DNA from: Phoenix dactylifera
Taxonomy: Eukaryota > Streptophyta > Magnoliopsida > Arecales > Arecaceae
Reading direction: 5' to 3'
Assembly: GCF_009389715.1 (NCBI RefSeq)
Contig: NC_052409.1
Span: 1,342,001-1,406,000 of the forward strand
DNA length: 64,000 bases
Below, piece after piece: positions 3,101 to 46,193 of this stretch. The position numbers were made by a program, and so were the translations under genes. The notes beneath the pieces are model-generated. The model did not search any database. It was given only the letters and a program-made list of their open reading frames with translations, and was not told where the DNA came from. Position 1 is the first letter of the stretch; every line of letters starts with the position of its first letter.

Positions 3101-6100
3101 TATGAGTCATACTTAGTTCTATGAGTATGCTTTATAGAATAAAATATATACCTGTTTTATGACATTAATAGTAATATGTCATAACTCATGTAGAATTCAT
3201 TGCATATATTTCATTGTTTATTCAATTGTTGGTTCTACAATGAAATTCATAGGGATATAGTTCCTTTTGCAGCCATTCAGCCATCATCCTTTCTAATTTG
3301 GAGGCTTCATCTTATCTCCAACAAATATCTTGGAAAAAAAAACTTTAGGCATGATCCTCTGTTGTTCAATTAGTTTTTCAAAGACTAGCTGGAAAGAGTC
3401 AAGTGATCAATCAGTGTTTTCTTTTGTCTGCTGCCTCTGTTATCTCTGGATGCTGTTTATGATAAAACAAAAACTGTATAACTTGTAAAGAGGATCTCGA
3501 CCAACAAACTTTATCTTGATACTATCTATAGTTATTATTTTAGTATTTGCTTGTGATACCAATGCTCATAATTTTACCATTATCAGCTCATTGTGATGAA
3601 ATCTGTGATGCAGAATGAGGAGAACAATGTCCATCTTGCCTACTGGCTGTCAAATACATCTAGTTTGTTATTCCTGCTACAACGGAGTCTCAAGGCTGCC
3701 GGTGCAGCTGGGACTGTTCAGCATCGTAAACCCCCTCCTCCAACATCATTGTTTGGGAGGATGACACAAGTATGTGATAATTATGATTTTCTTCTTTACA
3801 AAGTTTCATTTTCTTTATTGGATATCCATGACCATTGCACTTATGCTTCTTCTTGGACACAAAAATGTAATAACAACACATTTGCATCTCGTATTGTTGC
3901 ATGTTCTAGAGATTTCATTCTTCTGCAAATCTTCCTGTGGATGAACTGAATGTTGTTGTGCGTCAAGTTGAGGCCAAGTATCCAGCTTTGCTTTTCAAGC
4001 AACAACTCACAGCTTACGTAGAGAAGATATATGGAATTGTCCGTGATAATGTAAAAAAGGACTTGTCTTCGTTGCTTTCATCATGTATTCAGGTATTCTG
4101 CATATTGTTTTGCTTTCATTACCCAATACTACCTATCTCTAAAGGTTAAACTCCTGCTACATAGTTCCTTTCAGAAATAGTTTGTAAAACTGAACAATAT
4201 CTTGAATTCTTGATCGATTTTGTTGTTTTGAACCTTCAGTTATTGAGTGTTCTCTTAACAATCTGTTATACTTGGTACACTGCTTATGTTCTACATTATA
4301 AATGTGCAGCTGCTTGAATTAATAAGTTTTTTAAGGGTTCAGCTGTGACCCTACCCATAGGATCATCAATCCTATTGCAGAGGTAGTGTCCCAAAATGCA
4401 TGTCGGTCCATATAAATCGACAATTAGCATACTCGATCATATTCATGACCTACACATATTGAACATGTTAGGACAATAAAGGGCTTTGAATACTTTGGAA
4501 TACAATCAGCTGAAGTCATTGTCATGTTATTAGTCACTATACATTCTGTGACAACTCCAGGCATGGGTAGGATGTTGCTGTAACATTTTTTTTGGGTGTC
4601 TTGGCATTTTAGATATTATAGGAATAATAAACAGTGTGAGTTCTCTGATTTGATTTCTCATCATGTATTTTCACCATGTAGAATTGGAACACCACTTAGT
4701 TTTAGTATGCAATTCTTGTAGATTTTGTTATATATAAATTTATCCTCAAAATATTGTTGCTTTGTTATATATGTAAGCGAATTTCAATTTATCAGAATAT
4801 TTGTGACCTTGCTTTCATATCTCAATTTTTTAATTTAATTGATGTTGAAAATTTAGGCACCGAGAACAAGGGCGCTGCGGGTCTCAGGGCGTTCATTTGG
4901 GAGTCAACCTCAGAGCACCCACTGGCAGAGCATCATTGATTGCCTCGATAACCTTCTGCAAACATTGCAGGAAAACTATGTAAGTTTATTAGGTAAAGTT
5001 TAAGTAATTGTTAGGGGTGATAATGTGCCAGCCCAGGCCTAAGACTGATGTCAGCCTGGGAACACAATCTTATGCCTGCCGAGCTTGGCCTAGGCTGAAA
5101 CTGGTCCGAGTATAGCAGGCCAGAATTTGACCTTTGTTCGGATTATTATGAGGCTGAGCTAGGCTCAAATTGGATGCGATCCATTTTGTGCAGAATGCTA
5201 AACCAGGGCCTAGCTTGTTGGGTTTCAGGGTTTTGGGTCCCAGGGCCTAAAATCAGAGCCCATTTGTCCAGGCCTGGCCTTTTGGGCAACTTGGCCAGCC
5301 TGTCCCGTTATTGGCCTCAGTAGATTTGCAGCCTTAGTAAAATTGCACCATTTGTTCACAAGAAGAGGACTTGTCATTGACCTGGTGGTTTTCCAGGTGC
5401 CCACAATTCTAATTCAAAAGATGTTTACTCAGATTTTCTCATTCATCAATGTACAACTTTTCAACAGGTCAGTGATTGTTTTGATTTTTCAATCCTTTCA
5501 TCTATGTGGAGGCAATATGTATTATTGTTTTTCTGGTGCTACTCTGCAGTCTACTCCTTCGTCGGGAGTGTTGCTCCTTCAGCAATGGAGAGTACGTAAA
5601 GGCTGGTTTGGCTGATCTGGAGTTATGGTGTGCACAAGCAAAATCTGAGGTAATCATCTCTGATTTACAGTTAATTACTTTTGGTTGCTCTGAATTTCTA
5701 ACAATTTCTCGCATTTCAGTATGTTGGATCATCTTGGGATGAACTTAAGCACGTAAGGCAAGCTGTGGGCTTCTTGGTATGTAATTTGTGTTACCATCTG
5801 AAGCATCATAGACTATCAATTTACAGAATTTATTTGGAATTGTCAATCATAACAGAACTAACTTGTATAACTGGGATTATCTTGTATATCTTGGTACAAT
5901 ATACCATGGTATGCGGTATCGTACCATACCGGATGGTACCGGACATACCGGACGGTACCGGGCGTAGCGTACTGGTTCGGTATCGGTACCGGTACTGGTG
6001 GCGTACCGACACTTAGTATGCCAGACATACCGCGTACCATATTGACACTATACTAGGTGGCATAGGTACGAAGTCTGGTACCTGTACAACGAACCTTACA

Positions 6101-14167: not shown

Positions 14168-14175
14168 TTTGAAGA

Positions 14176-17100
14176 ATGGACGGTGAAATACCCAGTCCTC
14201 CAGGTCAGAGATTTGCGCAAGATTACAATTATTTGGTCGCAGGTGAGGTACCTTCAAACAAGCACTTGAATAACATCTCTGTTCGGACTGGCGAGGAGTT
14301 CTCCATGGATTTCCTTCAAGATCGAATCACACCAAGAGGAGCAACATTTAGACCTGGGATAGATCGTGGGCAAATGAAGAATGTAGGATGTAATAATTAT
14401 CAGATTTTTCAGGCAGGCTATGAGGATCTTGCAGGCATTCTTGGGCTTGGAAGAACAGACTCTAATGGTTATTCTGATGTTTCTAATCCTAATTTGGCTA
14501 AAGGGCATTTGATGGATGGCAAGGCTATGGAACATATTGATAGAACAAGCAAAATTCATGGCGACAATAATAGGAAAGTGACAGAGAACTGTATGGATGA
14601 GTGTTCTGAACCTGGTCCTCTTTCTGAGCCCCTTCAAGGTTATCAGAATTGCCCTCGTGGACCTGGAGTCGTGGAAAGTCCTCAGTCCAGTAAAGTGAAA
14701 TTCCTATGCAGCTTTGGTGGAAAGATCTTGCCGAGGCCAGGTGATGGGAAACTGAGATATGTTGGTGGTGAGACACGGATTATCTCCATCAGAAGGAATC
14801 TTTCATGGAAAGAACTTATGCAAAAAACCGTGAGCATTTGCAACCAACCTCACACCATCAAGTATCAGCTTCCTGGCGAAGATCTTGATGCTCTGATATC
14901 TGTTTCTACAGATGAGGATCTTCAGAATATGATGGAAGAGTACTATGGGCTTGAAAAGGCTGATGGATCTCAGAGACTTAGATTATTTCTCATATCCCTG
15001 ATTGAATCTGATAACCCTTCTATAGATACTAGAGACTTGCATAGCAGCTCAGAGTACCAATATGTTGTTGCTGTGAATAACATACTAGAGCCAGGTCCCA
15101 GGAAAAGCTCAAGTGGTAATAGCTATTCAAGCCAAATGGGATATCATTTAGATAATTCTCCAAGATTTCAGAGAGATTCCCCTTCTTTTCCTCATTCTGA
15201 TGTTATCAATGGACTTGCTGCTCCAGATCATGCTGGCATGTTCATGCATCTCCCTGGTCCACAGTTCTTTGTTAGTTCTCAAACTGCACCAAAGACCCCC
15301 ACACAGTCACCTCCTTTTTCTCCAAGGCCAGTTCAGCAGAGAGATATGAGACATTCTAGCAATCAATCATATGATGATCAGTTTATAGCAGACCGACCAC
15401 TGGAGAATTATCATGAGATTGATGCTAGCTATTGTCTACAAGGAGTACCAAAGCTGCATCCTAACATGCGTAGTGATGTTGAGATGCCGACTGTATCTCA
15501 TGGAATGCCTTCTCAAAATCATAAGCACATCAGGGATTTTATTAATCCACCATTTACTCGCAATGACAGTGACTTAGGTTTATATCCATATTATGAAAAG
15601 CCTCCTCAAACTGAAAGAGCTTTTCATTCTGACAAATGCCCCAATCAGATAGGAGATTCACTGAGTTGGATATTGGGATCCAATGATTCAATTGGTCCAC
15701 CTCAAGGTATGCCTCATGCATATTCTGATTCAGTGCTTCAAGAACAAGGTGAAAGGAATTTGTCTAATGCATCAGAAGGAACAACACCCTACATGGACTT
15801 TACAGCATCACCATTTTGTCAACAAATATGCCAAAATAACCTGCAGGAAGGAACAACACGATTCCATGAAAATATAGATATCAATCACCCAAATCTTTCT
15901 GATAAATTACAGAGAACCTTGTCCACCAGTCCTCAGGTTAGACCAGAATTTGCATATTCTTCTCATCATCCAGAAGTTCGTGGAAGAAATGAATCTAAGC
16001 ACCAAATTGCCTATTATCCTGGTGAAGAACATCGACGTAAACAAAGATCTGATGACCTCAATTCTGGGTCACAAGACTGTTATGTGCAACATTGTTTGGC
16101 TGGAGATGCGGTTACACAGATGAATGAGAAAGGAGCTCTTCTTCCTCGGGATAAGAAACTTTATCATGATGATTTTAATGCAACACAAGAGACATCCATT
16201 TACAAGAGTAAGTTACTTGGCACAAATTACAACCCTGGTGGTATGCGTGGTGCTCATGTTTCTTCCCAGGAGTTAGAAGCATTAGAAAGTTCTGTTCCTA
16301 CATCTTCACTTTTTTCTTCAAAATCTGATTCGGATAATCTCAAAGTGCATTCTCCTGGCAACCCATTTGATGGATCGAAGCCAGAAATTTCCACCAAAAG
16401 CTATGGAATTGCTAATAGTCTGCGTGGTGAATCATCTGAACCATTAAATGATCATCTTGCATGTGAAGGTGGCAATGTCATGGCTCTTCCACCTTCTGTT
16501 TCATGGCCAAAGGATTCTCTAGAAGCTCCACTTCCAAACAAATTTGCTGAAGACATTACTCCAGAGTGTTGTGGTGATAAAACTCCAAATGACCTAGTTT
16601 ACGCATTATCAAGTGATCCTGTTTCTCATCTTCCTCCAGGCACAATGTCTCAGAAGGATAACCAAGGATACAAAGTATCAGGTTCTACAGCTCCACTTGT
16701 TACAGTCGGTGGCATTGGTCTGAGTCTAAACCTGCATGCTGATGACCCTCCGAGTTGGTCTTTCTTTCCAAATCCAGCCACAGGTAACATTTTAAAGAAA
16801 GAAGTTGTTCTTCTTGATTGGGACTCCATTAATCATCCTGATTCAGGCATCACTGACATGGATCATGAGGGCTGCGGTCTTGAACCATGGAAAGGAGGAG
16901 AGAACAGATCAATATGTAATGTGCATAACAATGTTGCACCGGAGACAGGGGTTATTATTGAAGATGTAACTGACAGTGTTCCTTCAGATATCCCAGCATT
17001 CCCAACAATTGTTCCTCATGTACTTCAGGAGGCAGTTGATGAAGTGGAAACTGGTGAAATCTCCTTGCCAAAAGTGACTGATGCAGAGAGCAACACTCCG

Positions 17101-20100
17101 GAGTCTGTTAGTGAGGTAAATATTGCGTGGTATTTATTTGAAATTCTCACTATTCTAAACCAACTGTTTCATACTACATCTGATGTATCATGTCTGTACT
17201 CTAGGATGCAAAAACTGATGAAAGAGATATGGATGAATCCATAAGTGATGCTGCAATTGCAGAGATGGAAGCTGGTATATATGGTTTGCAGGTATGGGCT
17301 GTATTTTATGCTTAATTGTGATATGCCATCTAACATGGTTTGAGCCCTAGCTTTACTAGCAAGCTAGACCATTGCCGGTTAGCTCATGTCATTTTGAAAC
17401 TTGTGCTGGTGAGCTCTGTCTTCCTTGATTGCATGATCCACAAATTTCTGATCCATGAGTTATTTCACATTCAATGTGATGTTTACTACAGCAAAACAGG
17501 GAAAAATTTTTTTATCTTATGAAGCTGCTGAACCTGTTTTTGTTATGCAAATATTTGGAGAATTAAATGTATATTCATCTGTTTCCATACTCTCCTGAAA
17601 CATTATAACTAAATTGGCCTAGCCGAAGAAGATTTAACACTACTTTGTCTGCTTATTGCCTAATGGGATATAGTGGATAATTATCAAAAGCCTTTGTTTC
17701 TTTTGCCTCTTTAATTGATTCAACTTGCTCTTGTAGTATTTTATCCAAAGTTCGCCATCTTGGTACCGGACCCTATACCAATGCCACATTAGCACTATAT
17801 CGGTACAGTATGGTATGGAAACTTTTCAGCATATTGAGTCTCGGTACGCCTACCGTACTGGATACTCGTACTGAACTAGTACGGTACGGTACATTCTGTG
17901 CCACCAGAGTTCGGGTTGGTACCGTGAACCATGATTTTATCAGAGCATTGCTCTTTACTACTTGTTTAATACGTAATCCATCATATTATATTATTTCAAT
18001 AATATGTGGATGATTTGTATTTCATGGGTTATGGATAGGAGTATTTGTAAATCATTTTATGTATTTCTTAATGCCTATCACTATGTATTTTAAAAATCTT
18101 GCTGCCTTTTCTACATCTACAGTGTTTGCAGGTTCTCTTATATTACATGCTTCTCTTTTGTTTTATTTTCTTTCGCTTGTATATATTTCAACTCCTTTTG
18201 AACCTTTTATGATCATTCTCTATTGCATCTGCCCTTGCTGTGCCATTTGCAAATGCAAAGCTTGTGACTGTAGACTACAGAACCTGTAGCTGTATAGCAG
18301 AATATGCTATTCTTCTTTCCCTTCATTAAATCTCACTATAAACAATTTTCAATTAATTTTTAAAAAAATATGATTCTTTGAAAAAATTGAAGTTATTAAA
18401 TATATGTTATTCTCAAAAATCTTTTGGCTCTTATTTCACTGAGTAGAGCTCGGTGACCAAATTTTTTATCTTCCACTGATTCATATTCTCCCAATGTTCC
18501 TAGTTTTTCATACTAAAGTTTCTATAGTAATGAGTTATCAAAAATCTTTTTTAGCTCTTATTTCACTGAGTGAAACAGGCTGGCCAAATTTTTTATCTTC
18601 TGCTGCTTCATATTCTCCCAATTTTCCTAGTTATTCATACAAAAGTTCTATAAAGCAATGAATTATTGTATGCATATTCTCCCTTTCCCTCATGTTCACA
18701 GACATCTGTTCATTTCTCAGTGCTAAATGATATATCGCTATTTATCTAAATCTGGTAGTTTCTTTTTTTTTGAGAAAATCTAAAACTGAAAGTTTCATAT
18801 GCTGATGAGCAGATCATAAGAAATGCTGACCTTGAAGAGCTACGTGAATTGGGATCTGGTACATTCGGAACTGTCTTCCATGGAAAGTGGCGGGGAACAG
18901 ATGTTGCAATTAAGCGGATTAAGAAAAGTTGCTTTTCAGGGAGATCATCTGAACAAGAGCGATTGGTGCGTTGAGAACATGATCACTACTGATGTATTTT
19001 TTGCTTTTATTAATTTTTATCTTTTTTGGTTTGTAGCTTCTGTAATATTTCTTATGATTGCACACATCCCCTTCTCACTATTTAGGATGACCATAGGCAA
19101 AGAACCCTGTCCCATCCATTTGAGTTTGGGTTGTGAAGTCCTCTTCAGGGATCATATCTATTCGGGTTAGACCTGCCATCTAGTCATGCTTTTCATATCT
19201 TTCGTCACACCTAGACAAAATTAGGTCTACCCAATATACCTTCTTCTGCAAATTTATCACCCCCATACCCATCTTGGACTGATGCATGGAAAGAAATCAG
19301 AAAGCTTTTGTAAAACAAATAGACATGATTGACTTTTAGAAAGCATGGTAAAACTAGCATACATGTAAAAGAAGAATGGATCTAGAGTAGATTAGGTGTG
19401 TTTTAGGTGTTTCCTTTTTGGGTTTCTTCTCTGTTAAAAATAAAAGAGAAAATATAAAAGGTCCTCAGCTCCTCGCCTTTCAAACCAGAACAAGGGCCTT
19501 TCTCGGCTGAAGGACAGGATTGGTCTCAAACCGGAGGAATGAATGAAGTTCAGTGGCTTTTCGCAGTTGAGCCGGCCATAGCTAGAACCCCTGTTCAATC
19601 TCATAGGGCTGAAGGAAAAAGAGTCTGGAGGTTCCCCCCCTCCAAGAATCAGTCAGCTGCATGGTATCAATAATGGTTTTGGTGAGGTGGGAAAGAAAGA
19701 TAAGATCACAACTATTGGTAACTCAAGGATAGTCCTCTACTCCTGCCCTCGATCTTTGTTCCTTTTTGGATAGCTCTCTCCCTCTAACCATCAACTAGCC
19801 TGAAAGAAGAATATTTACATTTTCTCTGAAAGAAAAGGAACATTTCTTTAGTTTCTCATTAGTTGATTTTAGGTTGATACCTGTTGCTGGTGGTCCAAAC
19901 CGAGAACGATTGGCACAACGGTGTGAACGGGGTTCCCTTGGAGTTGGGTTGATTGCGCTCCACCTTCCACCGGAAAACCTGCAGGCAAGCCTCGCACCAC
20001 CACTGGGGTAGTGGGGGCCCTCCGACGATCAAGTCAGAGGAGATTGAAGGAGAAGGAGAGATAGTAGTAACGGATAAGAGAATACTCTGGAAAACCTTTG

Positions 20101-23100
20101 CTTACCCTCCCCCTCCCCCCCCAGTCCCATATATATCAGGCTGGGGGGTTTTTCCGGGGATTCGTCATCGTGTGGCACGATGGGGCTGCCACTGACATGG
20201 CCGTTACAGGGCGTCGTGGGGCAGCGCTGGGTACGGCCCTGGCAGGGCATAGTGGAGCTCCGCTTTGTACGGCTGTTACAGGGGATCGTGGGGCAGCGCC
20301 GGATACGGCCGTTGCAGGGAGTAGTGGAGCAGGGGGCCGCGGCGTGCCTCAGAGGAACAGTCTGTTGTTGTCGAGAGATTGCCGACTCGGGGTCGGATGA
20401 CTGGATCAGGGGGCAGCCGACTCGGGGTCGGGCTGCGGAGACGTAGATATCCGACTCGGGGTCGGATTGCTGGATCAAGGGGCAGCCGACTCGGGGTCGG
20501 GCTGCGGAGCCGAAGATATCCGACTCGGGGTCGGATTGCTGGATCAAGGGGCAGCCGTAGTCTTCCTGGGCGCGCGTGCCGGTCACGTGGGGCATGGTGG
20601 CTAAATTCCCCCGTAACAGTAGCCCCCACTTCCGAGCCTGGAACCAGGAGGGGAACGGGTGAAGGGAGTGATGCTTCGAGATTGCCGCCATCCCTCGGAA
20701 AGGCGCGCGCGCTTCGAGCTCCCCGCCTCCTTTATGGCGTATAGCGGTTGTCGCTGATCTGGCCGTCTGCGGATTTCGGCGGACATCCTTCCTTAATGGC
20801 GTCGATTCGCCTTTGGGGCGCGAGCGATCCTTCGGCAGCCAGGCGTCCTCTGGCGTCATTGCCTGCTGATTCTCTAACTGCCTCCCTACCCCTTGCGGAC
20901 GTGCCCGGCGTTCCCGACCCAGGGGTTCCTCCAAGCTGACCCTCTGTACCTTTCTTTGCCCTTTTCTTTGTATGTTGGCGTTTTGCCAAGTTGTATGGGT
21001 CTCGGCCCTGAAACAATGAAAGTTAATGCAAATAGAGTGTTTCTTCATTTCACTTTCGTCCTTCCTCTTTTTAACTTTTGGTAGCGTCTCGCCGACTCCT
21101 AACTCTTGAAGTTCTTCCGGCGCTAGGCCAGGCATCCGAGGGTTAGGCCTCAGGAAATTCTTCCGGCGCTAGGCCAGGCATCCGAGGGTCAGGCCTCAGG
21201 AAATTTTTCCGGCGCTAGGCCAGGCATCCGAGGGTTAGGCCTCAGGAGCCAGGCATCCGAGGGTTAGGCCTCAGGAAATTCTTCCGGCACTAGGCCAGGC
21301 ATCCGAGGGTTAGGCCTCAGGAAATTCCGCTCGTTAGTCGGCCAAGGCTGGCGCAAGCCGAGGCGACCGGTCGGGGCTTCAGGCTAGTCTGCTCCCGGGA
21401 TGATCATCGGGTTAGCCTGGCATCCGAGGGCCGAGCCTCGGGAAATTCCGCTCGTTGGTCGGCCAAGGCTGGCGCAAGCCGAGGCGACCGGTCGGGGCTT
21501 CAGGCTAGTCTGCTCCCGGGATGATCATCGGGTTAGCCTGGCATCCGAGGGCCGAGCCTCGGAAAATTCCGCTCGTTGGTCGGCCAAGGCTGGTGCAAGC
21601 CGAGGCGACCGGTCGGGGCTTCAGGCTAGTCTGCTCCCGGGATGATCATCGGGTTAGCCTGGCATCCGAGGGCCGAGCCTCGGGAAATTCCGCTCGTTGG
21701 TCGGCCAAGGCTGGCGCAAGCCGAGGCGACCGGTCGGGACTTCAGGCTAGTCTGCTCCCGGGATGATCATCGGGTTAGCCTGGCATCCGAGGGCCGAGCC
21801 TCGGAAAATTCCGCTCGTTGGTCGGCCAAGGCTGGCGCAAGCCGAGGCGACCGGTCGGGGCTTCAGGCTAGTCTGCTCCCGGGATGATCATCGGGTTAGC
21901 CTGGCATCCGAGGGCCGAGCCTCGGGAAATTCCGCTCGTTGGTCGGCCAAGGCTGGCGCAAGCCGAGGCGACCGGTCGGGGCTTCAGGCTAGTCTGCTCC
22001 CGGGATGATCATCGGGTTAGCCTGGCATCCGAGGGCCGAGCCTCGGGGAATTCCGCTCGTTGGTCACGCGCCTGTCGCTTGCCGCTCGACGAGATTTCTC
22101 CGTGGCCAGCTACGATCGTGTTTCTCCTCTTCTCCAAGCGTCGCCTGGGGAACACCAGAAGGGTATTAAATGCTAATTGAAGCGTTACTTGGGAAATCGG
22201 ATCGCCAGTTGCTGCTTGCAAGGAGTGTCAGTTAAGCGGCCGCGATACGCGCGCTCTTCGAGGCGGATGCGGCCTGAGCGCGAGCGGAGATACGTGGGCC
22301 GCGGGATACACGCTGCCCGGAGTGTCCTGCGTGAAGAATGCAATTAAGGAGAACGACTCTTAGGAGATCGTGGGAGGATACGCCTCGAGAGCCGGAACGG
22401 CTCCGGATTCGGTGCGCCCGCCTTTATTGGAGCCACCCGCATCGGAACGACCGGGGGGCCTCAGTTTGGCTATAAATACAAGTGCAGGCGCGGTGGAGCC
22501 TGCCAAGCCGGAGCTATTCAGGTTGCCATGGTTCGTGGACCTCCTCTCCGGCGTGTGGCTGGGAAACCCCCGCCGGAGGAACGGGAGGCGCGCCCCTCGC
22601 GACTTCCGCCAACTAGCCGTTTCATCTGGGATCAACAGGGAGGTTCTCCCCGGCGGAACTCCGCTCTAGGCGTTTCATCCGGGATCACATCCCCCCTCTT
22701 TTCAGCCCCGCCTCCCGATTGAGCTCTGCGCCAGACGCCTCATCCGGGTTCGCGCCTCCTCGCGCTTTTCTCCCTTGTGTTCCTTCCCTCCCCTTCTCCT
22801 GGGGAGGACCGGAATATTCCTTGGAGGTGGCGTTCCTCTGGAGGCAGCGGGAACTCCTCCTTCGTCCACTTCTTCTTCGTCCGCGCCGGCTCTTTGTCTT
22901 TTGCGTGAGGCGTCGATGGCGCCTCCGGGGAGAAGCACCCACGCCCGGTGGGATTGCAGCTGCTTCGGATGGAGGGTTCGGGATCCCAGATCTTCAGCTC
23001 CACGGAGTCTCCACCTCTTCCTTGTTTTCTTTACTCCCCAATTCCCCTCTGGGAATTCTTTGTAATCACACGAACACACCGTTGTAACCAGGAATTATTG

Positions 23101-26100
23101 AAATAAAAAGAATTGTACATTTTTCGAACTGTCTTCCTGGCTTTGTCGTTCTACTGGTAATACACCCGCAGGTTAGCGGAATTCCAGCTCCTCGGAATTT
23201 CTCGACCATCTAGGGCCTCCAACTGGTAGGAGCCAGGTCGGTATAGTCGATGCACATCCTCCACTTCCCGCTCGCCTTCCGGACAAGTACAACATTTGCC
23301 AGCCACTCGGGGTAGCTTACCTCCCTTATGAATCCTGCCTCCAAGAGCTTGTCTACCTCCTGGTCGACCATCCGGATCCGATCCGGGGCACAGTGTCTCT
23401 TCTTCTGCTTTATTGGTCGGTGGGTCGGGTCGACGTTGAGGGCGTGAGAAATGACCTCCGGGTCGATCTCAGGTACATCGGCCGCCGACCAGGCAAATAC
23501 ATCGGCATTGGCTCGGAGGAATTCCACCAACCGGGCCCGAGCTCCCGGGTCGAGATTGGCGCCGACCCGGATCGCCCGGTCGGGGCGGCCTTCCTCAAGG
23601 GGAACTTCGACCACACCCTCGGCTGGCTCCCCCTGCCGCAAGGCCACCTCGTCTCTGGCGTCAAGGGACTCGACGCTTAGGGCTTCCACGGGCTTCTTCC
23701 CTTTGAGAGTCGCTAGGAAACATTGCCGTGCGGTCGGTTGGTCACCTCGGACCTCTCCGATCCCAGCCGCCGTGGGGAACCGCATGAGCAAGTGGTACGT
23801 AGAGACCACCGCACGAAGGGCGTTCAGTCCGGGTCGTCCGAGGATAGCGTTGTAGGCCGAGGGAACACGGACGACCAAGAACCCGAGTCGCACCGTGGCT
23901 TCTGCGGGTGCAACGCCCGCAGTCACAGGCAGCTCGACGACTCCTTCGGCCGGGACAGCGTCACCAGTGAATCCGATGAGGGGGGTGGATGTTTTGTGCA
24001 ACAATTGTCTGGACAAGCTCATCTTTTGGAAGGCCTTGTAAAACAAAATATCGGCTGAGCTTCCACTATCAACAAGAACACGCCTTACATCATAGTTTGC
24101 CATAGTGAGGGAGATCACCATGGCGTCATCGTGGGGAGTCTGAACCCCCTTTACATCCTCATCAGAAAAGGTGATTACATTGCCGACCCTCTGCCTCTTT
24201 ACGACGGCCATCCCTGATGCTTCCGCCGAGCCCCCTGCGTTCCTCACAGGCCGAGAGCAGCCCCCAGTGATAGTATGGATCACGCCCGCAACGGGTCGGT
24301 TCTGCTCCCGAGGCTCCGGAGGAGCCGGGTCGGCCGGACGCGGGTCCGCGGGGGGACGTCGGTCGCTCACATATCGACCGAGACGCCCCCGACGGATGAG
24401 AGCCTCGATCTCGTCCCGAAGCTGGAAGCAGTCCTCCGTGTCGTGGCCGTGGTCTCGGTGGTACTCACAGTACGCCCGAGAGGGCCTCTTCCCGGAGATC
24501 TTCCGCATCTGTCTCGGAGCCGGGAGATCCTCCCGCCCCTTGATCTCCATAAGGATCTGGGCCCGGGGAGTCAGGAGAGGGGTGTACCGGTTGAAACGTC
24601 GAGGCGGAGAACGAGGGCGTGGGGCGCCGTGGTTTCTCGCCGGCGACGGGCTTCTGCGCCGACGCTGGGGCGTCGGGCTCCTCCTCTGGCGTGCCTCTTT
24701 TCGCCTTTTCTTTCCAAGCTTTGGAGGGATCTCGGCGGCCTCCTTGCTCCGGTGGGCGGCCGCCTCCTCGGCGTCCGCATACTGGTTCGCCCGGGACAAC
24801 AGCTCCGGGAAGCTCCGTGGCAGGCGTTTATCCAGGGAGAAGGTGAGTCTGCCCTTTCGGAAGCCACGCTTCAGGGCTGAAAGGGCCACCTCCTGACTCA
24901 GGTTCCGGACCTCCAGCGTAGCCTTGTTGAAGCGGGTAAGATAATCCCGCAGGCTCTCTCCCTCGTTTTGCCGGACATCAAAGAGGGAGTCGGAGACCAG
25001 TCGCCGCCGGCTACTGACGGCGAAGTGAGTGATGAAGAGGCGAGTGAACTGGTCGAAGGACCGGATCGAGTCAGCCTCCAGCCCGGCGAACCACGCCCTC
25101 GCCGGGCCACGGAGGGTTGCCGGGAAAGCTTTGCAGAGAAGGGGATCTGATGCTCCGTGGAGGAGCATGAGGGTCCTGAAACTCTCGACGTGATCCCGAG
25201 GGTCCGCCGCCCCGTCATAGGGCTTGATCGCCGGCATTTTGAACCCCGGCGGATTCGAGGTCCGCAGGATCCTCGAGGCGAGCGCCGGCTGGGAGGAGAT
25301 CTCTAAGTCGGCGAAGGGATCTTTGGAATGGCCCTTCAGGACCTGGAGTTGTCGGTGGAGATCGTCCACCCGCCGGTCCAGGGAACGCGACCGGTGGGTG
25401 GGAGACAAGGAGCGGCGAGAGGGGGATCGGCCGGAGCGCGGGTTCCTCGAGGACTGGGGGGTCTGGGAACGCGCCCGGGCCCGCCTCTCGTACCCCGCGC
25501 AGCTCCGGTGGGAAGGTCCCGGCAGAATGGAGCGTGCTCGAGAATCCTCCTCGCGTCGGCGCTCCTCCCCATGGGAGAGGAAGGAACGCGGGTTAAGGAG
25601 GACAGGCGAACGCTCAGGCAGCGGCGGCTCCTGAGCCTGCTGCGGCGCCCGGGACATTGCACCCTGCAGATTCTGCACCGCCTCCGCGAGGGTGCGAACC
25701 TGCTGGGTTAGCTGGTCGAACTGGGCGGCTTCGACCATCTGAATGGGCGGTGGGGCGGTGGAGTGTTGCTGAGGGCGTGTTAGAGATGCAGCGGCTTCCC
25801 GGCCAGAGGCGCGAGAGGCCCCGCGACCGGAAGCATTGGAAGCTCCACGACCACCTCGCCGTGCCATTACGATCGCTCTAAGATCCGGGCCCTCCTTCTA
25901 GCGCCAACTGTTGCTGGTGGTCCAAACCGAGAACGATTGGCACAGCGGTGTGAACGGGGTTCCCTTGGAGTTGGGTTGATTGCGCTCCACCTTCCACCGG
26001 AAAACCTGCAGGCAAGCCTCGCACCACCACTGGGGTAGTGGGGGCCCTCCGACGATCAAGTCAGAGGAGATTGAAGGAGAAGGAGAGATAGTAGTAACGG

Positions 26101-29100
26101 ATAAGAGAATACTCTGGAAAACCTTTGCTTACCCTCCCCCTCCCCCCCCAGTCCCATATATATCAGGCTGGGGGGTTTTTCCGGGGATTCGTCATCGTGT
26201 GGCACGATGGGGCTGCCACTGACATGGCCGTTACAGGGCGTCGTGGGGCAGCGCTGGGTACGGCCCTGGCAGGGCATAGTGGAGCTCCGCTTTGTACGGC
26301 TGTTACAGGGGATCGTGGGGCAGCGCCGGATACGGCCGTTGCAGGGAGTAGTGGAGCAGGGGGCCGTGGCGTGCCTCAGAGGAACAGTCTGTTGTTGTCG
26401 AGAGATTGCCGACTCGGGGTCGGATGACTGGATCAGGGGGCAGCCGACTCGGGGTCGGGCTGCGGAGCCGTAGATATCCGACTCGGGGTCGGATTGCTGG
26501 ATCAAGGGGCAGCCGACTCGGGGTCGGGCTGCGGAGCCGAAGATATCCGACTCGGGGTCGGATTGCTGGATCAAGGGGCAGCCGTAGTCTTCCTGGGCGC
26601 GCGTGCCGGTCACGTGGGGCATGGTGGCTAAATTCCCCCGTAACAATACCAGTAATAAATATATGCTCAAAACTTTTTTCTGTTGGACCTGGAACCTTCT
26701 GATGCATTCCAACAACAATTCCATCTTTATGGGATTGGGCTTGGTTATGTAAAAGAAAATGCATTCTTTTTTCTTTTCTTTTGGTGTATCTGAAAAGAAA
26801 ATGCAACTAAAAATGTTATTTGTGGTGTTGCATGTCTCTACTTGAATGAGAGTCTTTAACATCTCGCATTGTCAGAATGAAGATACGGGATTTTCCATTA
26901 TCGCATGTGAGTGCTATATATACAAGAAAATATGAACATGCATTAGATAAAATTTCTATTATTTCAGCACTATACCTTCAACAGTTTTGGAGGCCTGGAG
27001 TAACCTAAGCTAAAGGAGAAGTCTCCTTCAAAAGAGGGGTGACACATCTAAAATGGATGTAATAATTACAAATCATGCATCTGGAGAGGCAAATTTTTTC
27101 TTTATTTCTCCAGCACCAAAAGGAAGACACACTTAGTTGCATTGGAACTAATGTAGCAAATGCGGATAAGCCATAATAGAACCTTAGATTAACTTTTTTG
27201 ATTAAACCAGCACTAATGTAGAAAACTATATCTGACTCTTGCATCCTCTAGCTTCGACTTATTTTCATCTTACCTGATTGTACCACATGAATTACTCTCA
27301 AGAGTACCCATATTTGTGAGCTTAAAATATTACATGTATAAATAATTGCATCTATTTTGCAAGTTGATAAGTTACTTATGCTGTTGGATCATTATTCTCT
27401 TGGTTCTGCAGACCAAGGATTTCTGGAGGGAGGCACAGATCCTGTCAAATCTTCACCATCCAAATGTGGTTGCATTTTATGGGGTTGTTCCTGATGGAGC
27501 TGGGGGAACACTGGCCACTGTAACAGAATTTATGGTGAATGGATCGCTCAGGCATGTCCTACTAAGGAAGGATAGGTGAGCATACCATAGTTTCTGGTAT
27601 ATTGTTTCATCTTATTTCTTTATGACTAGGACAGGATTGTGCTTAAAATGTACTCTGCAGGGCACTTGACCGCCGTAAAAGGCTGATAATTGCAATGGAT
27701 GCAGCTTTTGGGATGGAATACTTGCACTCAAAGAACATAGTTCATTTCGATTTGAAATGTGACAACTTACTAGTTAACTTGAGAGATTCCCAAAGACCAA
27801 TCTGCAAGGTAGTGCCAGAAATTGCAAGTCTACTTTGACACTTATTGAGCAGTCGATCTGGTATATTAGAATCATGTTTCATATAAAGCTACATTTCCTA
27901 CTATCATTTGATCTTTGCTTCTGGAAAACTTGTTATTGATGTTTAGTGTTTGCCTCGGTCCAGGTTTTGTTCTGCATTGGCACATCTGCAGTATATATGA
28001 AATTAATAAAGAAAAGCAGGGCGAGTGGGGGAAGGTTGGTAGGGACGGGGGTGGGTTGGTTTGTAGTCAGCGTTAAAAAGGAACTAGAGTAGGAGGGCTC
28101 AACGAACAAGCGTAGAGCATAAATGTGGCTTTGAAAAGATGCAGCTGGAAATTTCTAAATTTTTTCCTGGAAGAATATATGGTTGTGAAGATATCGCTGT
28201 TTTAGCTTTAAAGTGGTTTCAAAAGAATAGCTAATATTGTTGTCGTCGCTGTTGGAATCTAAACTTAGAATTCAAATAGTTTATTAGTGAGAATTTGGAA
28301 ATCGCATTTGCAGGTTGGAGACTTTGGATTATCAAGAATTAAACGCAATACCTTGGTTTCCGGTGGTGTACGAGGAACCCTTCCTTGGATGGCACCCGAG
28401 TTGTTGAATGGAAGCAGTAGCCGGGTTTCTGAAAAGGTACCTAGTCCATTTGGTAGTTTATACATTTCATGAGGGAAGCTAACTGTATATTTGGGCTATT
28501 GTAGGTTGATGTTTTCTCATTTGGAATAGCAATGTGGGAAATCCTCACCGGCGAGGAACCCTATGCAAACATGCATTGCGGCGCAATCATAGGTAAATCT
28601 GTTTTTAAACTTCCAGAGAAATAAAGGCTTGCTTAAATCTTGTTATCGAGTTATGGATGTGCAGGAAATAAGAGTGTAGAGTATTTGATGGGGATGATCT
28701 CATTTCTTTCTTTTTTGCATATTTTTGGATCATGGAGTTTAGGATAACATTGCCTACTCTTTCAGGGAAAAGGTAACATATAATGCAGTGAGGATTTCAC
28801 ATAATTCCAAATTATTTCTTGTTTTCTTCCTCATCTCAGAAAAATGACCTTTGACAGGTAGTAATCGGAAAGATTTCCCCTTGTTTTGCTAAAGCAACCT
28901 GAATCAGTAAATAAAATAAGTGGCAAAATTTATAAATAGGTGACTCGAGCTGCTCTTACCTCTTTCATGTAAATGGTAACCTAATTTATAGTACAATTTT
29001 GTCCGCATGATGTATCATGAAAAGGTGATTTCTTAGCTGCATTAGCAGGCAAGATCCAATTATTTTTTTTTTTATCATTAACAAGATCTATTGCTGTAGT

Positions 29101-40470: not shown

Positions 40471-40629
40471 CAGAGAGGTGGCTGAGAGAATAGGAGACGA
40501 GAGAGCGTAGCGGCAGCAGCCCTGTTCCGTAGAACGCAGAATAAATAGAAGACACTTTAGAGTGGGTCGCAGCTTACTGCGACGGCATTACATATCCATG
40601 GGCATATGATTGGGGAACGGAACGCAGTC

Positions 40630-40678
40630 GGGTAGTTCTAAATACACCCCCCCGATTGCTCAGGACACCCCCCAAAAA
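40630..40678 (+). repeat. Left terminal inverted repeat of MULE
   Basis: 49 bp, identical in inverted form to 46135-46183. It contains runs of seven and six C around GATTGCTCAGGACA. A diverged second copy follows at about 40699-40738 (CTACACCCCCCCATTTGCTA, then AGGACACCCC). Confidence 0.95.
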
Positions 40679-41116
40679 TTAAAAAAAAATTAAATACTCT
40701 CTACACCCCCCCATTTGCTAAGGACACCCCTAAAAAAATAAAAAATCCTAAATTACCCTTCACCCTCCCCACCCCCTCACCTAAATTGCTCTCTACACCC
40801 CCAAACCCCCCCCCCCCCCCAACCCCGCTCTTCCCCTCCAAAACTCCACTCCAGCCGGCTTCTCCCTTCCGCCCAAAAAACTTCGCCTCAAGCACCTCAA
40901 GCACCTCGCCGGCGGCCAAACCCCCTCCGTCTCCCCCTTCTCCCTCGCCCAAAACCCCCCCGTTCCCCCTTCTCCCTCTCGTCGCCGGCATTCTCCCCTT
41001 CTCCCTCTCGTCGCCGGCATTCTCCCGGAACCACCTCCCCGGCCATCTCCCGAGCAACGAGCACCTCGCCGGCGCCTCCACGACCACGTCGAGGTAGCTC
41101 CCCGCCCCCCCGCCTC

Positions 41117-41420
41117 CAGTGCTCCGTTCGGCACTGGATCGCCGAACAGAAGGGTTCTGTTCGGCTGAACAGTGCCGAACAGAAGCCCTCTGTTCGGCAA
41201 CACTCAACCGAACAGAAGCCTTCTGTTCGGCTGCACGGTGCCGAACAGAAGCCTTCTGTTCGGCTGCACAGTGCCGAACAGAATGGTTCTGTCCGGCTCT
41301 GAGCAGCCGAACAGAAGCCTTCTGTTCGGCTCTGTGCAGCCGAACAGAAGCCTTCTGTTCGGCACTGTGCAGCCGAACAGAAGGGTTCTGGTGCGTGCCG
41401 TGCTGAATTTTGTGCCGAAC
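41117..41420. repeat. Left array of ~33-bp palindromic units in MULE
   Basis: About eight units, each holding the near-perfect palindrome GAACAGAAGCCTTCTGTTC extended by CCG/CGG, separated by GCTGCACAGTG-like spacers. The array lies just upstream of the PMD gene's ATG (41487). Its outer edge (GTTCGGCACTGGATCGCCGA) and inner edge (GTGCCGTGCTGAATTTTGTG) both recur, inverted, in the right array. Confidence 0.93.
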
Positions 41421-41486
41421 ATTTATGTATGCAATTGAATTATTTTCTTTGATATAGCCTAACATTGAATTTCTATATTTTCAGAC

Positions 41487-43401
41487 ATGGATCCCCGTCC
41501 CGCCAGAGTTAGACCTACGGCGTCAGCTAGGAGACGTCGTGCTAGGATTGCTTCTCCCGAGCCTGCTCATATGCCATCGGACTCTCCTGAGTCAGAGCAT
41601 GATGATATGCCCGCTAGGGGCGAAGACGATGAGTCCGTTGGACCATGTCCAGGAGGTCCAGAGGATGAGTCCGTCCTGATCAGTTTCAGGACGCATATAG
41701 CAGCTTCCATCTGGAGGCAACAGGTATTGTTTATTTGTTATAGCATTATATTTTGTTTATTGATGTTTTATAAAGTAGTAGTAATTATACATTTATATTA
41801 CAGGAACGAGCTTCACTAAAGTGCATGAACCATACTGCCAAGGTTGGTGAATGGAAGTGGTGGTCTTCAAACCAACCAAATACCAGGTTCAGAGCACTAT
41901 TGAGGCAGTCGGGCCTCGTAGAGTTAGTACAGTGCTCTTATCGATTCATCGATAAGATTCTGATTTCGGGCTTCGTAGAGAGATGGCAGCCCGAGACGAA
42001 CACCTTCCATATACCATTTGGCGAGATCACTATCACATTGGATGATGTATCCGCCATTTTAGGGATTCCTGTCGCAGGTTCCTCAGTATTAGTTTCTCCT
42101 GAGAGGATGAGTGATCGGGATGCTGAGGAGCTACTTGTGGAGTTGTTGGGGGTGTCAGCTGGAGACGCGCGTCAGGAGGTACTGTCATCGCGCGGTCAGT
42201 CTGTGAGGATGGAGTGGCTGAGGACTCAGTTTCACTCTGTATCTGATAGAGACAGGCAGCAGAGGATAGAGTGTGCAGCACGAGCCTATTTGTTATTTTT
42301 GTTAGGCTGCACACTCTTTGCTGATAAGAGTGGGACCAGGGTGCCTATAGCGTATCTGTGTTTACTGCGGGATCTGGATAGGGTGAGCACATATGCCTGG
42401 GGTACAGCTGCCTTAGCATATTTGTATCGGCAGTTGGGGATTGCGTCGAGGTCATCAGTGAGACAGATCAGTGGTTATATGACGCTTCTGCAGGCATGGA
42501 TTTATGAGCATTTTCCAGCACTCAGTCCTCACCCGTCGCTCGAGTATACTGATGCCAGTCCCCGCGTGCACCGCTGGATGCCCGGTACTCCATCCCGTAC
42601 CACGATGGACCATTTAGTGGTTTTACGTGAGTCATTGGACCTTTTGAGCATCGATGAGGTACGTATCATATTACCATTTGCTTGTGTTTGTCAGTACATT
42701 TAATATGCGATATAGTATAAAACTGAAATGGACCTTTTGTTTTACAGGTTATTTGGGATCCCCATCATCGGCTTCGGGGAGATCGCCCATATATACCCGT
42801 CGCATTTTTTAGTGGCTCCATCAAGTGCCTTGATATCGTAGAACCCTATCATCCAGAAAGGGTTCTTAGACAGTTTGGTCGTATTCAGACCATCCCTCGA
42901 GCGCCACTAGCCCCTACGCGAGCCAACAGAGGTTCCACAGCAGGCTCATACCGGATACATTACTCCTATATGGATCAGCTTTGGGAGCGGTGGGAGGACC
43001 ACGTGCTGAGCCAGGCGAGCAGGAGCCACCCAGTTACCCGGCCATCAGACAGCGTACCGGGATACATGGAGTGGTATCTCCGTATCACGCACGTTGCAGT
43101 TCAGCCTCCTCATCTGCGCTCGAGTACTCATTCTGGAGCTAGGGGAGGTCATGATGATGCTGACATGCACCGGCGGCGTAATGCAGCTGCACTCGGTATC
43201 AGTACCGACATTGTACGGATGGGTCCCTCAGAGGCTACGTCACTAGGTGCCGGGCACCTATATGATGCTATTTCTCAGATGCATCAGGTACTTCTGGGTG
43301 ATGAGCCTGGCCCGAGTACAGCACCCTCTCATTCGGATCCAGGACCCTCTCATTCGGACGTACAGCAGTACACGCGTCGACGATGGCGTCATAGGGATTG
43401 A
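41487..43401 (+). CDS. Plant mobile domain (PMD) protein carried by the MULE
   Basis: Three exons, 41487-41723, 41804-42658 and 42748-43401, join in frame to 581 aa. After an Arg/Pro/acidic start comes a PMD fold of the MAIN/MAIL type: GEWKWWSSN, LVELVQCSYRFIDKILISGF, FGEITITLDDVSAILGIPV, then RAYLLFLLGCTLFADKSG, ISGYMTLLQAWIYEHFP and IWDPHHRLRGDRPYIPVAFF. The tail is Ser/Pro/His-rich. PMD proteins are known both as transposon-borne ORFs and as domesticated MAIN/MAIL1 factors in silencing and genome stability. No phosphatase domain is present, so a label as a phosphatase-7 homologue would rest on the shared PMD only. Its role for the transposon is unknown. Confidence 0.88.
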
Positions 43402-43568
43402 TGATGGAGCCTTTGTAATCTTTGTAAAGCCTTTGATATTAATGAAAAATATATATTTTTGGTACATTTACGTGTAATCTTTGTAAAGCCTGGCCCGTTC
43501 TATTTTACACAAATATAACAGTGCACATAACAATCAATCTAACAATGCGAAGACAGATATTTTTTGAT

Positions 43569-45922
43569 TTATATTGATGATGGAGTTTCAAAAATTGTAC
43601 ATATATAAACAATCAATCTAACTCTACTGTCTTGCCTCCACCTCCCCCTGAGGAGATGGAGTCCCGTGGGGGGTTTGACCCTGAATCTGATACGACTGAT
43701 GTTCTGCCTCCACCTCCCCCTGAGGTACCTCCAAATGTTGTTCCAATCAAAGCTGACCCTCCAATGAGGATCTATGCAGTCGAGAGGAATGGGCCGACCT
43801 TCCACCCTGTACCGCGCAATCTGGTGAGCACATGGTATACCATGTGTGCGTCGAATAGCGCACCCACAATTTGAATCATCAAACCCAACTGAATTGGCTC
43901 GTTTCGATTGGGCGAGGACATGATTTAACGCACTTATAGATATGAAACCTCGCAACTCTTTGAATTCAGCTGGCTTGAAGTTGTGCTGCACTACCAATAA
44001 ACTCTTCTCCAATGAGGCTTTAACGGAGCTGTGCTGCAACTCAATCAATCCATGTATTCTAGTCCAAGATGACTCGAAACTTCCTTGGCTTGATCCAAGC
44101 TGCTTTTTGAGCTTTGCATGTGCACTCTCGACCCTAGTAAACAAATGAAAGTTAGATATAAGAATTGAGGCAAATTAAATTTAAATGAGTCTTTATTTGT
44201 GATACCTATTTGTCGTCACATTTCCGTAGTGCCTGCATGTATCAGTCCACGCCGCAACAAATCTTTCCTTGTATTTGCTCAGCCAAGTATCTGACACATA
44301 CTGTAGTGCATCTGGATAGGTACCGAACTCTCTCTGCAGTGCACTCCAGCGATCATTATACTCGTCTTCCGTGGAGGACAGCACTAGTACATTCCAACTC
44401 ATAATAAATTTATCCCATTTCTCCTTCAATTCGAAAAATTTTTTGCACTTGGCCAAAACATTCCTACTAATATGCCATCTACATAATAAATGTCTAGCAG
44501 TAGGAAATACTCTATGAATTGCATTCATCAAAGCCAAGTCTCTATCTGTAACAATCAACTCAGGCAAAACATCATCAGCTATGACACTGCGCAATCTCTC
44601 TAATGCCCAAGTATAGCTTTCTTCCCCCTCAGAATTTAAGTATACAAAAGCAACTGAAAATGTCATGTCAGTAGATGTCACCCCCACAATCTCTAAGAGC
44701 GGAAGACGATACCTATTCGTCTTGTACGTGCAATCCATTATCAACACACGGAGAAATGCACGGAACAAATCAATGCTGCCAGGGTGTGCCCAAAATAAGT
44801 CATGCACAACATCCGTATTAGTACAATTCCTATGCCACTCAATATATTTAGCCTCTGATAATTTACCTAGTAGATGTTGCATTTCAGACCTCCCGGCTTT
44901 CTCTGCAACCTTAAACCGTTGACGTACATTGTAGATAGTCTTGATAGTCGTAACATTGAGGGCATCTCTTTCCTTCAATGTGGATAATATGTCCTTTGGA
45001 CGAACCAAACTCTTCGACATATCCACTAACAATTCCGTCTCCTGCTCAGATAATCTCCCTGCATATGAGTGCCCCTCCAGATTCTCTGCAGCGGGATGAT
45101 TGTGCACTCCACATACGACCAGTAATATCCAATCATCCGCAGTATCCAATTTCTTTCCTCTTAATGCAAAAGGGCATCCACACTTCTTTGTCCCACAGGC
45201 AGTCTTTATTCGCTTTTCTTTTGTGGTTCGGTACGTCCCACCCCTCTCACAACCTAACGTAATTCTGGGTTTCTTAGAAATGGTACCTGCATCGGATGAT
45301 TTGATTACAACAACAAAACCATTTCGCCTCCCAGCTTCACGACACCAATTACACAAGTCCTCTCTACTCTTGAAGATCTATACATTAAACAATTTATGTA
45401 AGTACACAGTTGTAAAAATAGCTCGCTAAACTAATACAAAATTGCACAATATATTATAATACCTCGTAAGTTGTAAATTCGCTTGTGTAATCCAGTACAA
45501 ATTCTGATCCAATTATACTCGATTCGGTTGTAGCATAGCCCTACATATAAAATAATTTATCACCAAGAATTAATGAATCAGAGGATCTGTTCGGCACAAA
45601 ATTCAGCACGGCACGCGATTTGGCACGAGAAGGCTTCTGTTCGGCTGCAGAGTGCCGAACAGAAGCCTTCTGTTCGGCTGCAGTGTGCCGGACAGAAGCC
45701 TTATGTTCGGCACTGTGCAGCCGAACAGAAGCCTTCTGTTCGGTAGAGCGTTGCCGAACAGAAGGCTTCTGTTCGGCACTATGCAGCCGAACAGAAGCCT
45801 TTTGTTCGGCGATCCAGTGCCGAACGGAGCACGAACCGTGAAAAAAAAAAACTTTCGAAACAAGGTGGAACACGTACCTTTGCGGCCGATTCTTCGTCCC
45901 AAATCACTAGTTGCTTGTCCAT
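43569..45922 (-). CDS. MULE transposase, FAR1/FHY3-related
   Basis: Four exons on the minus strand, 45878-45922, 45463-45540, 44206-45377 and 43569-44133, join in frame to 619 aa. I chose the ATG at 45922 because its 15-codon exon splices in phase into the next two. A FAR1-type WRKY-GCM1-like zinc finger (about 50-135; CREAGRRNG, KKCGCPF, VCGVHNH) precedes the MULE RNase-H-like catalytic core, with acidic residues in LIMDCTYKT (Asp256) and VTDRDLA (Asp319) followed by HLLCRWHISRN. Near the end is a SWIM zinc finger, CGCAIRRTHGIPCAHQ. The tail repeats LRGRWRQ twice, matching a duplicated stretch (43632 and 43708). The first intron holds the right palindromic array. No frame breaks are seen, so the enzyme may be active. 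Confidence 0.9.
45583..45843. repeat. Right array of ~33-bp palindromic units in MULE
   Basis: About seven units with the same GAACAGAAGCCTTCTGTTC palindrome, lying in the first intron of the transposase. The array is inverted relative to the left one: it starts with GTTCGGCACAAAATTCAGCA and ends with the inverse of the left array's outer edge. Confidence 0.92.
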
Positions 45923-46134
45923 GCTTCGAATGGGGCTTAAATCTCCTTCAAAGATCGCCTAAACGATGTAAATGGATCGAGGGGTTTAAGGGGGGTTTGA
46001 GGGGTGATTTTTTTTTTCCTTTTCAAAACGAAACGGAGGAGGAGACGGAGGAGGAGGAAGGGGGGTGTACTGAGAAAATTTCAAGGGCAATATGGTAATT
46101 ACACTAAAGGTTAGTTTGGGTATTTTTTTTTTGG

Positions 46135-46183
46135 TTTTTGGGGGGTGTCCTGAGCAATCGGGGGGGTGTATTTAGAACTACCC
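46135..46183 (-). repeat. Right terminal inverted repeat of MULE
   Basis: 49 bp, perfect inverse of 40630-40678, ending in TTTAGAACTACCC and followed by the 10-bp target duplication. Confidence 0.95.
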
Positions 46184-46193
46184 GAACGCCGTC

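Follow-up and report, generated by a model that had tools for sequence, protein, structure and literature searches.

The window analyzed here, a stretch of 64,000 nt from the date palm (Phoenix dactylifera, assembly GCF_009389715.1, contig NC_052409.1, positions 1,342,001 to 1,406,000), contains a Mutator-like element (MULE) of 5554 bp at positions 40630..46183, in which a gene with a plant mobile domain (PMD) lies beside a transposase gene. A preliminary description had presented it as an apparently intact element with perfect 49-bp termini, a 10-bp target duplication and two convergent, unbroken multi-exon genes. The termini were indeed identical over 49 bp (40630..40678 on the plus strand and 46135..46183 on the minus strand) and represent the terminal inverted repeats (TIRs) of a TIR-type MULE. 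They are flanked by the target-site copies GAACGCAGTC (40620..40629) and GAACGCCGTC (46184..46193), which have the described length of 10 bp and agree in 9 of the 10 bases. MULE target duplications range from 8 to 11 bp. Among 17 copies of the family measured for this feature, with the window copy included and L012, L013, L017 and L018 excluded, 13 had perfect 9-bp duplications (the window copy, L015, L019 and L021 differed). Perfect 9-bp duplications were also found in L046, L047, L048 and L049. No Rfam family was detected in the window at the gathering threshold.

The PMD gene lies on the plus strand and has three coding exons (41487..41723, 41804..42658 and 42748..43401, the last ending at TGA) with GT-AG introns, encoding 581 aa in all. 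An additional intron in the 5'-untranslated region (5'-UTR) is predicted at about 41094-41484, with limits inferred from GT/AG. The product matched the Pfam PMD family with 249.5 bits (cut-off 34.9, E=6.9e-74). A host PMD gene, L029 (C11:20945100-20946194), is intronless with an open frame of >690 aa; its identity to the element PMD was about 30% over the aligned part. Since the full Pfam profile persists at this distance from the intronless host gene, the element PMD was probably under long constraint in the past. A decayed paralogue of the host gene was found at C1135:51610-52769.

The transposase gene is read from the minus strand, so that the two genes converge as described. Its exons 1 and 2 lie at 45878..45922 and 45463..45540. 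Exon 3 (44206..45377) contains the MULE catalytic domain (Pfam MULE, 93.4 bits against a cut-off of 27.6, E=1.3e-26) and an N-terminal FAR1-like match slightly below its cut-off (27.4 against 28.1 bits). Exon 4 (43758..44133) carries a SWIM-like Cys/His pattern, CxC...CxH, seen by eye; the Pfam matches included no SWIM family, only the ZSWIM1-3 RNaseH-like domain. This exon is cut by a deletion. In an alignment with the complete copy L011 (7306 bp, perfect 9-bp duplication) about 1.75 kb was absent from the window copy, including 993 bp of transposase coding sequence that correspond to exons 5 and 6 and a portion of exon 4. The junction lies at 43758..43760 with a 3-bp overlap. The transposase frame appeared unbroken because the reading runs through this junction into captured sequence, a 110-bp 5' piece of a host Argonaute gene (43651..43760, plus strand, 99.1% identical to the host locus L050). 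Neither the transposase nor the element as a whole is intact. In the 773-Mb assembly, an exact 32-bp pattern spanning the junction had a single occurrence. The copy in the window has lost internal sequence at a junction of its own and belongs to a young multi-copy Mutator-like family whose complete copies measure 6.7-7.4 kb.

Two arrays of the same 33-bp repeat are present in the element. The left array (41141..41396, 8 units) is inside the predicted 5'-UTR intron of the PMD gene, and the right array (45621..45810, 6 units) is inside transposase intron 1. The core of the repeat, GCCGAACAGAAGCCTTCTGTTCGGC, is 25 bp long and palindromic.

The gene pair across the family

Further copies were searched for in the assembly, which contains the window. 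A first DNA search, in which the best 40 of 886 candidates were scored, listed 43 matches of 85-100% identity. Twenty loci were fetched from the top of this list, and the sample is therefore biased toward close copies. Element length was 6.7-7.3 kb in 14 of the 16 loci with both ends measured; L019 had 4.5 kb and L023 had 4.4 kb. The complete members carry the PMD gene convergent with an 887-aa transposase. Among the first 21 copies read, with the reference L011 included, the PMD gene was open in 16, the transposase in 11 and both in 10.

Searches were also made with translated exons. With transposase exon 3, 101 of 106 scored copies were open (best 106 of 417 candidates), and with PMD exon 2, 119 of 137 (best 137 of 286 candidates). 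A convergent PMD exon was located within 20 kb of 83 of the 106 scored transposase copies, with distance modes of 2820 and 3300 bp. Markers of 40 nt, allowing up to three mismatches, were counted over the whole assembly without ranking by score. This resulted in 168 PMD markers, 189 transposase markers and 154 markers for an OTU-like exon of the transposase described below. On C1-C16, 72 of 99 exact transposase markers had PMD in register, 69 had OTU and 57 had PMD and OTU; OTU or transposase stood alongside 80 of 91 exact PMD markers, and 11 had neither. PMD is kept about as often as the transposase. The preliminary description had asked whether the two genes stay together and had named routine absence of PMD from other members as the outcome that would speak against it. 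Such routine loss is ruled out by the similar marker counts and the exact-marker pairing on C1-C16, in agreement with the 83 paired copies and the ten of 21 copies with both genes open. The scored lists for this genome contained no more distant family of MULEs with PMD; they were filled by the present family.

Searching for the termini, as had also been proposed, revealed 702 + 699 TIR ends in the assembly with at most one mismatch each. In three cases family elements stood in tandem only 9-10 bp apart (L026:7835-7843, C1:5489633-5489641 and C2:625240-625249), as if one had inserted at the edge of another. In the L026 tandem a 9-bp target copy is followed by a TIR with 5 mismatches in 30. The copies fall into subfamilies A, including L011, and B, including L045, L046 and L047. 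An apparent divergence of 10% between their noncoding sequences was considered and rejected; the profile places the difference in the spacer between the two genes, which is other sequence in B, and in a left subterminal stretch.

Substitutions were counted among copies with at least 90% coverage, and L041 was treated as the same copy as L020 (identical PMD). Shared PMD changes in the 19 closest copies were 8 nonsynonymous (N) and 6 synonymous (S), with 10.4 N expected under neutrality (P 0.13). In 18 transposase copies unshared changes were N=38 and S=21 (expected N 41.9, P 0.16), shared changes were N=5 and S=1, and no stops were seen against 3.6 expected (P about 0.025). Between L011 and the B copies L046 and L047 we counted N=11 and S=4 for PMD, and N=18, S=3 and N=14, S=5 for the transposase. 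By these N and S counts purifying selection was seen on neither PMD nor transposase at the age of this family. The dN/dS comparison within the family is uninformative. Unshared changes amounted to 0.12-0.16% per copy in 18-19 close copies. With a substitution rate of 0.65-1.3e-8 per site per year, the insertions would be roughly 0.1-0.25 million years old.

Outside the element, the window contains a retroelement-like region on the minus strand (20029-26871) with a long frame of gag-pol type, recognized by eye (23210-25897), flanked by similar stretches at 20029-21168 and 26056-26871. This region is probably an LTR element. An open frame of 1023 aa at 14173-17244 on the plus strand belongs to a host-like gene and may represent the N-terminal region of a PB1-domain kinase, again recognized by eye.

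Transposase end, repeat arrays and captured host pieces

The complete transposase of L011 has 887 aa in six exons. Where exon 4 of the window copy is cut, complete copies continue through a linker to the OTU-like exon, which is followed by one final exon. In L011 the stretch behind the linker, downstream of the SWIM-like part, contains KADGNC...GNHF and resembles OTU proteases, in which DGNC and a C-terminal His motif occur. The Pfam profile Peptidase_C65 scored 14.8 bits (cut-off 24.3, E=0.02). Searches against PDB returned 6dx5_B (E=0.0036), OTUD5 (0.026 and 0.027), an unrelated synthase (0.11) and OTUD1 (0.25); 6dx5_B is labelled RNA-dependent RNA polymerase, and we take it to be a viral OTU domain. 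For the two exons searched, NCBIfam yielded no useful match. We use the name OTU-like only, because the C65 match is below the cut-off and the PDB matches are weak. The linker between the SWIM-like and OTU-like parts contains a G run, 8 long in most A copies, 7 or 9 long in L028, L009 and L012, and longer in the B copies discussed below. This joint between the protein halves is prone to slippage. Another tandem repeat, distinct from the 33-bp one and of the CCGTATCGGCACATCTCGGCACGGCACAT type, occupies about positions 4300-4490 of the L011 element, in the intron that precedes the OTU-like exon.

The arrays were analyzed in 26 copies. Both were present in 24, with 6-9 units on the left and 3-7 on the right; L045 had one array and L043 a single left unit. 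Within single copies core identity was 0.93 and spacer identity 0.45-0.49, a contrast that is favoured by picking the units through their core. The first 100 TIR ends listed yielded 38 plus/minus pairs, and 24 ends remained unpaired. Thirty-three pairs were 0.83-1.4 kb apart, one 4.7 kb and four 6.8-7.5 kb. The short derivatives L048 and L049, taken as examples, had perfect 9-bp duplications, TIRs and array units and no complete gene. The exact core was found inside 28 of the 33 short pairs and in 0 of 33 control intervals shifted by 20 kb. For 93 of 97 exact core sites, an exact TIR end stood at most 8 kb away (100 sites listed, with the last 3 dropped since the TIR list ends earlier). The short copies may derive from few founders. 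L049 contains a CT-rich tandem sequence between left end and array (positions 175-750) that had no listed match to the L011 element.

The surprising part of the family is its captured host sequence. The spacer between the stop codons of the PMD and transposase genes falls into two classes, one of 253 nt and one of 733 nt. L011, with the longer spacer, contains a 211-bp Argonaute piece that is 99.5% identical to the 5' coding end of the host gene L050. Downstream of the captured stretch L050 encodes ArgoN (E=2.1e-34) and ArgoL1 (E=3.2e-14), identifying it as an Argonaute gene. Among solved structures the best chain was Argonaute 10 (E=6e-20), followed by a chain named argonaute-4 (E=1.1e-18), presumably the animal protein. 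The captured sequence may resemble the N-terminus of plant AGO4, and the source gene may belong to the AGO4 clade. On the opposite strand the L011 spacer carries 59 codons of a DRM-type methyltransferase (NtDRM, PDB 4onj, E=6.3e-19). In the spacer of subfamily B the DRM end extends over 122 codons, interrupted by one internal stop; here NtDRM matched with E=1.2e-52, and the next group, DNMT3, followed at 4e-8 or weaker. DRM and Argonautes of the AGO4 clade are effectors of RNA-directed DNA methylation.

A search of the genome with the 57-aa Argonaute piece gave 60 matches from 61 candidates, all scored, and 55 of these were in or beside family elements. Fifty-three were within 7 kb of a scored family gene (two of them belonging to one element on C7), the match on C1275 is L042, and C12:3141096 is near a PMD marker. 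The matches at C1:27569090 and C83:139013 are host genes (L050 and L051); C1:23236616 and two at C18:98082xx stand outside this tally. We also scored the cassette in 34 distinct copies besides the window (35 loci with L041/L020 counted once; the spacer is missing or cut in L012, L040 and L044). Both Argonaute markers and DRM were present in 13 copies, one Argonaute marker and DRM in 2, DRM only in 4, and none in 15, giving totals of 15 copies with Argonaute and 19 with DRM. Both genes are open in the cassette-free copies L016, L018, L026 and L027. Cassette boundaries were different in L019 and L023. The Argonaute and DRM pieces give the impression of having been captured together, as a single composite, and reshuffled afterwards. 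Two independent DRM captures were considered and dropped, since by eye the A/B difference includes clustered change and a single composite event would be the simpler account.

Possible role of the PMD gene

MULEs with PMD were first described in rice (Babu et al., as cited in PMC5418596). PMD in MULEs, its origin as a captured host domain and a suggested anti-silencing role have been published (PMC5418596, PMC8616336). The elements of grasses and Amborella (Ikeda et al. 2017, PMC5418596) likewise combine a MULE transposase with PMD, for which the anti-silencing role was suggested. There, however, both are parts of fusion proteins, whereas the palm family has a separate, convergent PMD gene and, beyond that, an OTU-like transposase end, palindromic arrays and Argonaute/DRM fragments. 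VANDAL elements provide a second parallel in being multi-gene MULE-type elements with tandem repeats of variable copy number in introns and upstream regions (PMC5735166, PMC10398659). The VANC21 protein binds motifs in such repeats, which lie in introns of its own gene and of VANB21 and in the region upstream of VANA21 (PMC5735166), and RNA-directed DNA methylation silences VANDAL noncoding regions (PMC10398659). VANDALs differ in being non-TIR elements (PMC13317346) with VANA/B/C genes. With long TIRs, and with two genes that Pfam identifies as PMD and MULE transposase, the palm family falls outside VANDAL, PMD standing in the place of VANC. Kaonashi-type MULEs also carry a cysteine-protease-like domain (PMC13317346), which in their case is ULP1, whereas the palm transposase has an OTU-like region fused to it. 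Pack-MULEs and transduplication likewise place captured host fragments inside MULE ends (PMC13317346); in the palm family, however, such fragments are found in elements that have genes of their own, and their sources are an Argonaute gene and a methyltransferase of the DRM type.

Based on these observations, the reading we favour, with about an even chance of being right as a whole, is that PMD is an accessory helping the element to escape silencing. The transposase would cut at the TIRs and create the 9-bp target duplications. The arrays would be cis sites bound by an element protein; we propose this because gene-less short derivatives keep them. PMD would not be part of the cutting machinery and would help the chromatin of the element to escape silencing, like VANC for VANDAL. 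The parallel is drawn from the binding of VANC21 to motifs in intronic and upstream tandem repeats. The window copy would no longer supply a full transposase, might still supply PMD and could be moved in trans.

Several results weigh against this reading. Unshared PMD changes in 29 copies were N=78 and S=20 with 69.8 N expected under neutrality, shared changes were N=31 and S=12 with 32.2 N expected, and 5 unshared stops were seen against 5.7 expected. The test for purifying selection proposed in the preliminary description thus gave no signal for PMD. As the substitutions look neutral, continuing selection on PMD is not shown, and PMD may be in neutral decay, another outcome that the description had named as speaking against it. 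The missing transposase stops hint at constraint or at the choice of good copies, and PMD has no such sign. Six gene-bearing copies were read later (L042-L047), and in none could both genes be shown to be open. Indels affect PMD and transposase of L042, parts are missing from L043 and L044, L045 is outside the measurement, and L046 and L047 combine an open PMD with a transposase out of frame relative to the L011 model. The linker G run of the B copies L045, L046 and L047 is 18, 12 and 13, placing the OTU-like part out of frame. Since the frame-shifted L046 and L047 still have perfect target duplications, this part may be dispensable or supplied in trans. The OTU assignment itself is weak, with the C65 profile under its cut-off and one of the five PDB matches an unrelated protein, and an AlphaFold model of the exon had a mean pLDDT of 40. 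As to the arrays, 5 of the 33 short pairs lacked the exact core. L048 looks like the product of recombination between the two arrays, an event that would leave units behind without selection. Short derivatives also need no PMD gene of their own.

The neutral-looking PMD substitutions, with stops at the expected number, are in line with a passive cargo, in which PMD is an old captured host gene that hitchhikes without present use and the Argonaute and DRM pieces are ordinary fragment capture. Capture of gene fragments is known for MULEs (PMC13317346, PMC5418596), and the copies free of the cassette are also intact and young. We consider this possible, if rather doubtful: a full PMD profile at about 30% identity to the host gene needs long past constraint, PMD is retained about as often as the transposase, and random capture would not be expected to bring pieces of two silencing-pathway genes into one small cassette. 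The last point was noticed after the fact, with the source recognized for part of the cassette.

The retention of arrays in 28 of 33 short derivatives, their dyad-symmetric core with variable spacer and the joint persistence of separate convergent genes would also be accounted for if PMD were a transposition co-factor, a second DNA-binding subunit for the palindromic arrays, rather than a counter-silencing factor. This appears unlikely. The FAR1-like region of the transposase could itself bind the arrays, and the functions described for host PMD proteins are in silencing and gene regulation (PMC5418596, PMC7156037).

A two-layer counter-silencing can also be imagined, in which PMD, from a family of host silencing factors, is joined by the captured Argonaute and DRM sequences that separate the convergent genes. 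As these pieces lie on opposite strands in L011, read-through transcripts from each gene would run antisense to one piece. Overlapping transcript ends would then give antisense or double-stranded RNA, and the resulting small RNAs would lower host Argonaute and DRM and weaken RNA-directed DNA methylation of the element. Despite the clear DRM matches, the near identity of the Argonaute piece to its host gene, the concentration of Argonaute matches at family elements and the share of copies with Argonaute (15 of 34) or DRM markers (19 of 34), this is quite improbable, given that 15 of the 34 copies have neither piece, that both genes are open in cassette-free copies, that the pieces look like one reshuffled composite capture of which a part has a recognized source, and that choosing the pathway after the fact inflates the impression.

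As far as our searches of the open-access literature show, the separate convergent PMD gene with an OTU-like transposase, the palindromic arrays that short derivatives retain, and the Argonaute/DRM cassette are new. No title there concerned MULE capture of AGO4 or DRM, although the review PMC8616336 or other print may mention it. The question at stake is what PMD does for a DNA transposon. The family offers many copies with both genes open, natural variants with and without the cassette, and short derivatives that point to cis sequences. With such variants in a young family, direct tests of PMD, of the arrays and of small RNAs from the cassette are therefore possible. If the captured pieces do act on their source genes, this would be a transposon silencing the silencers.

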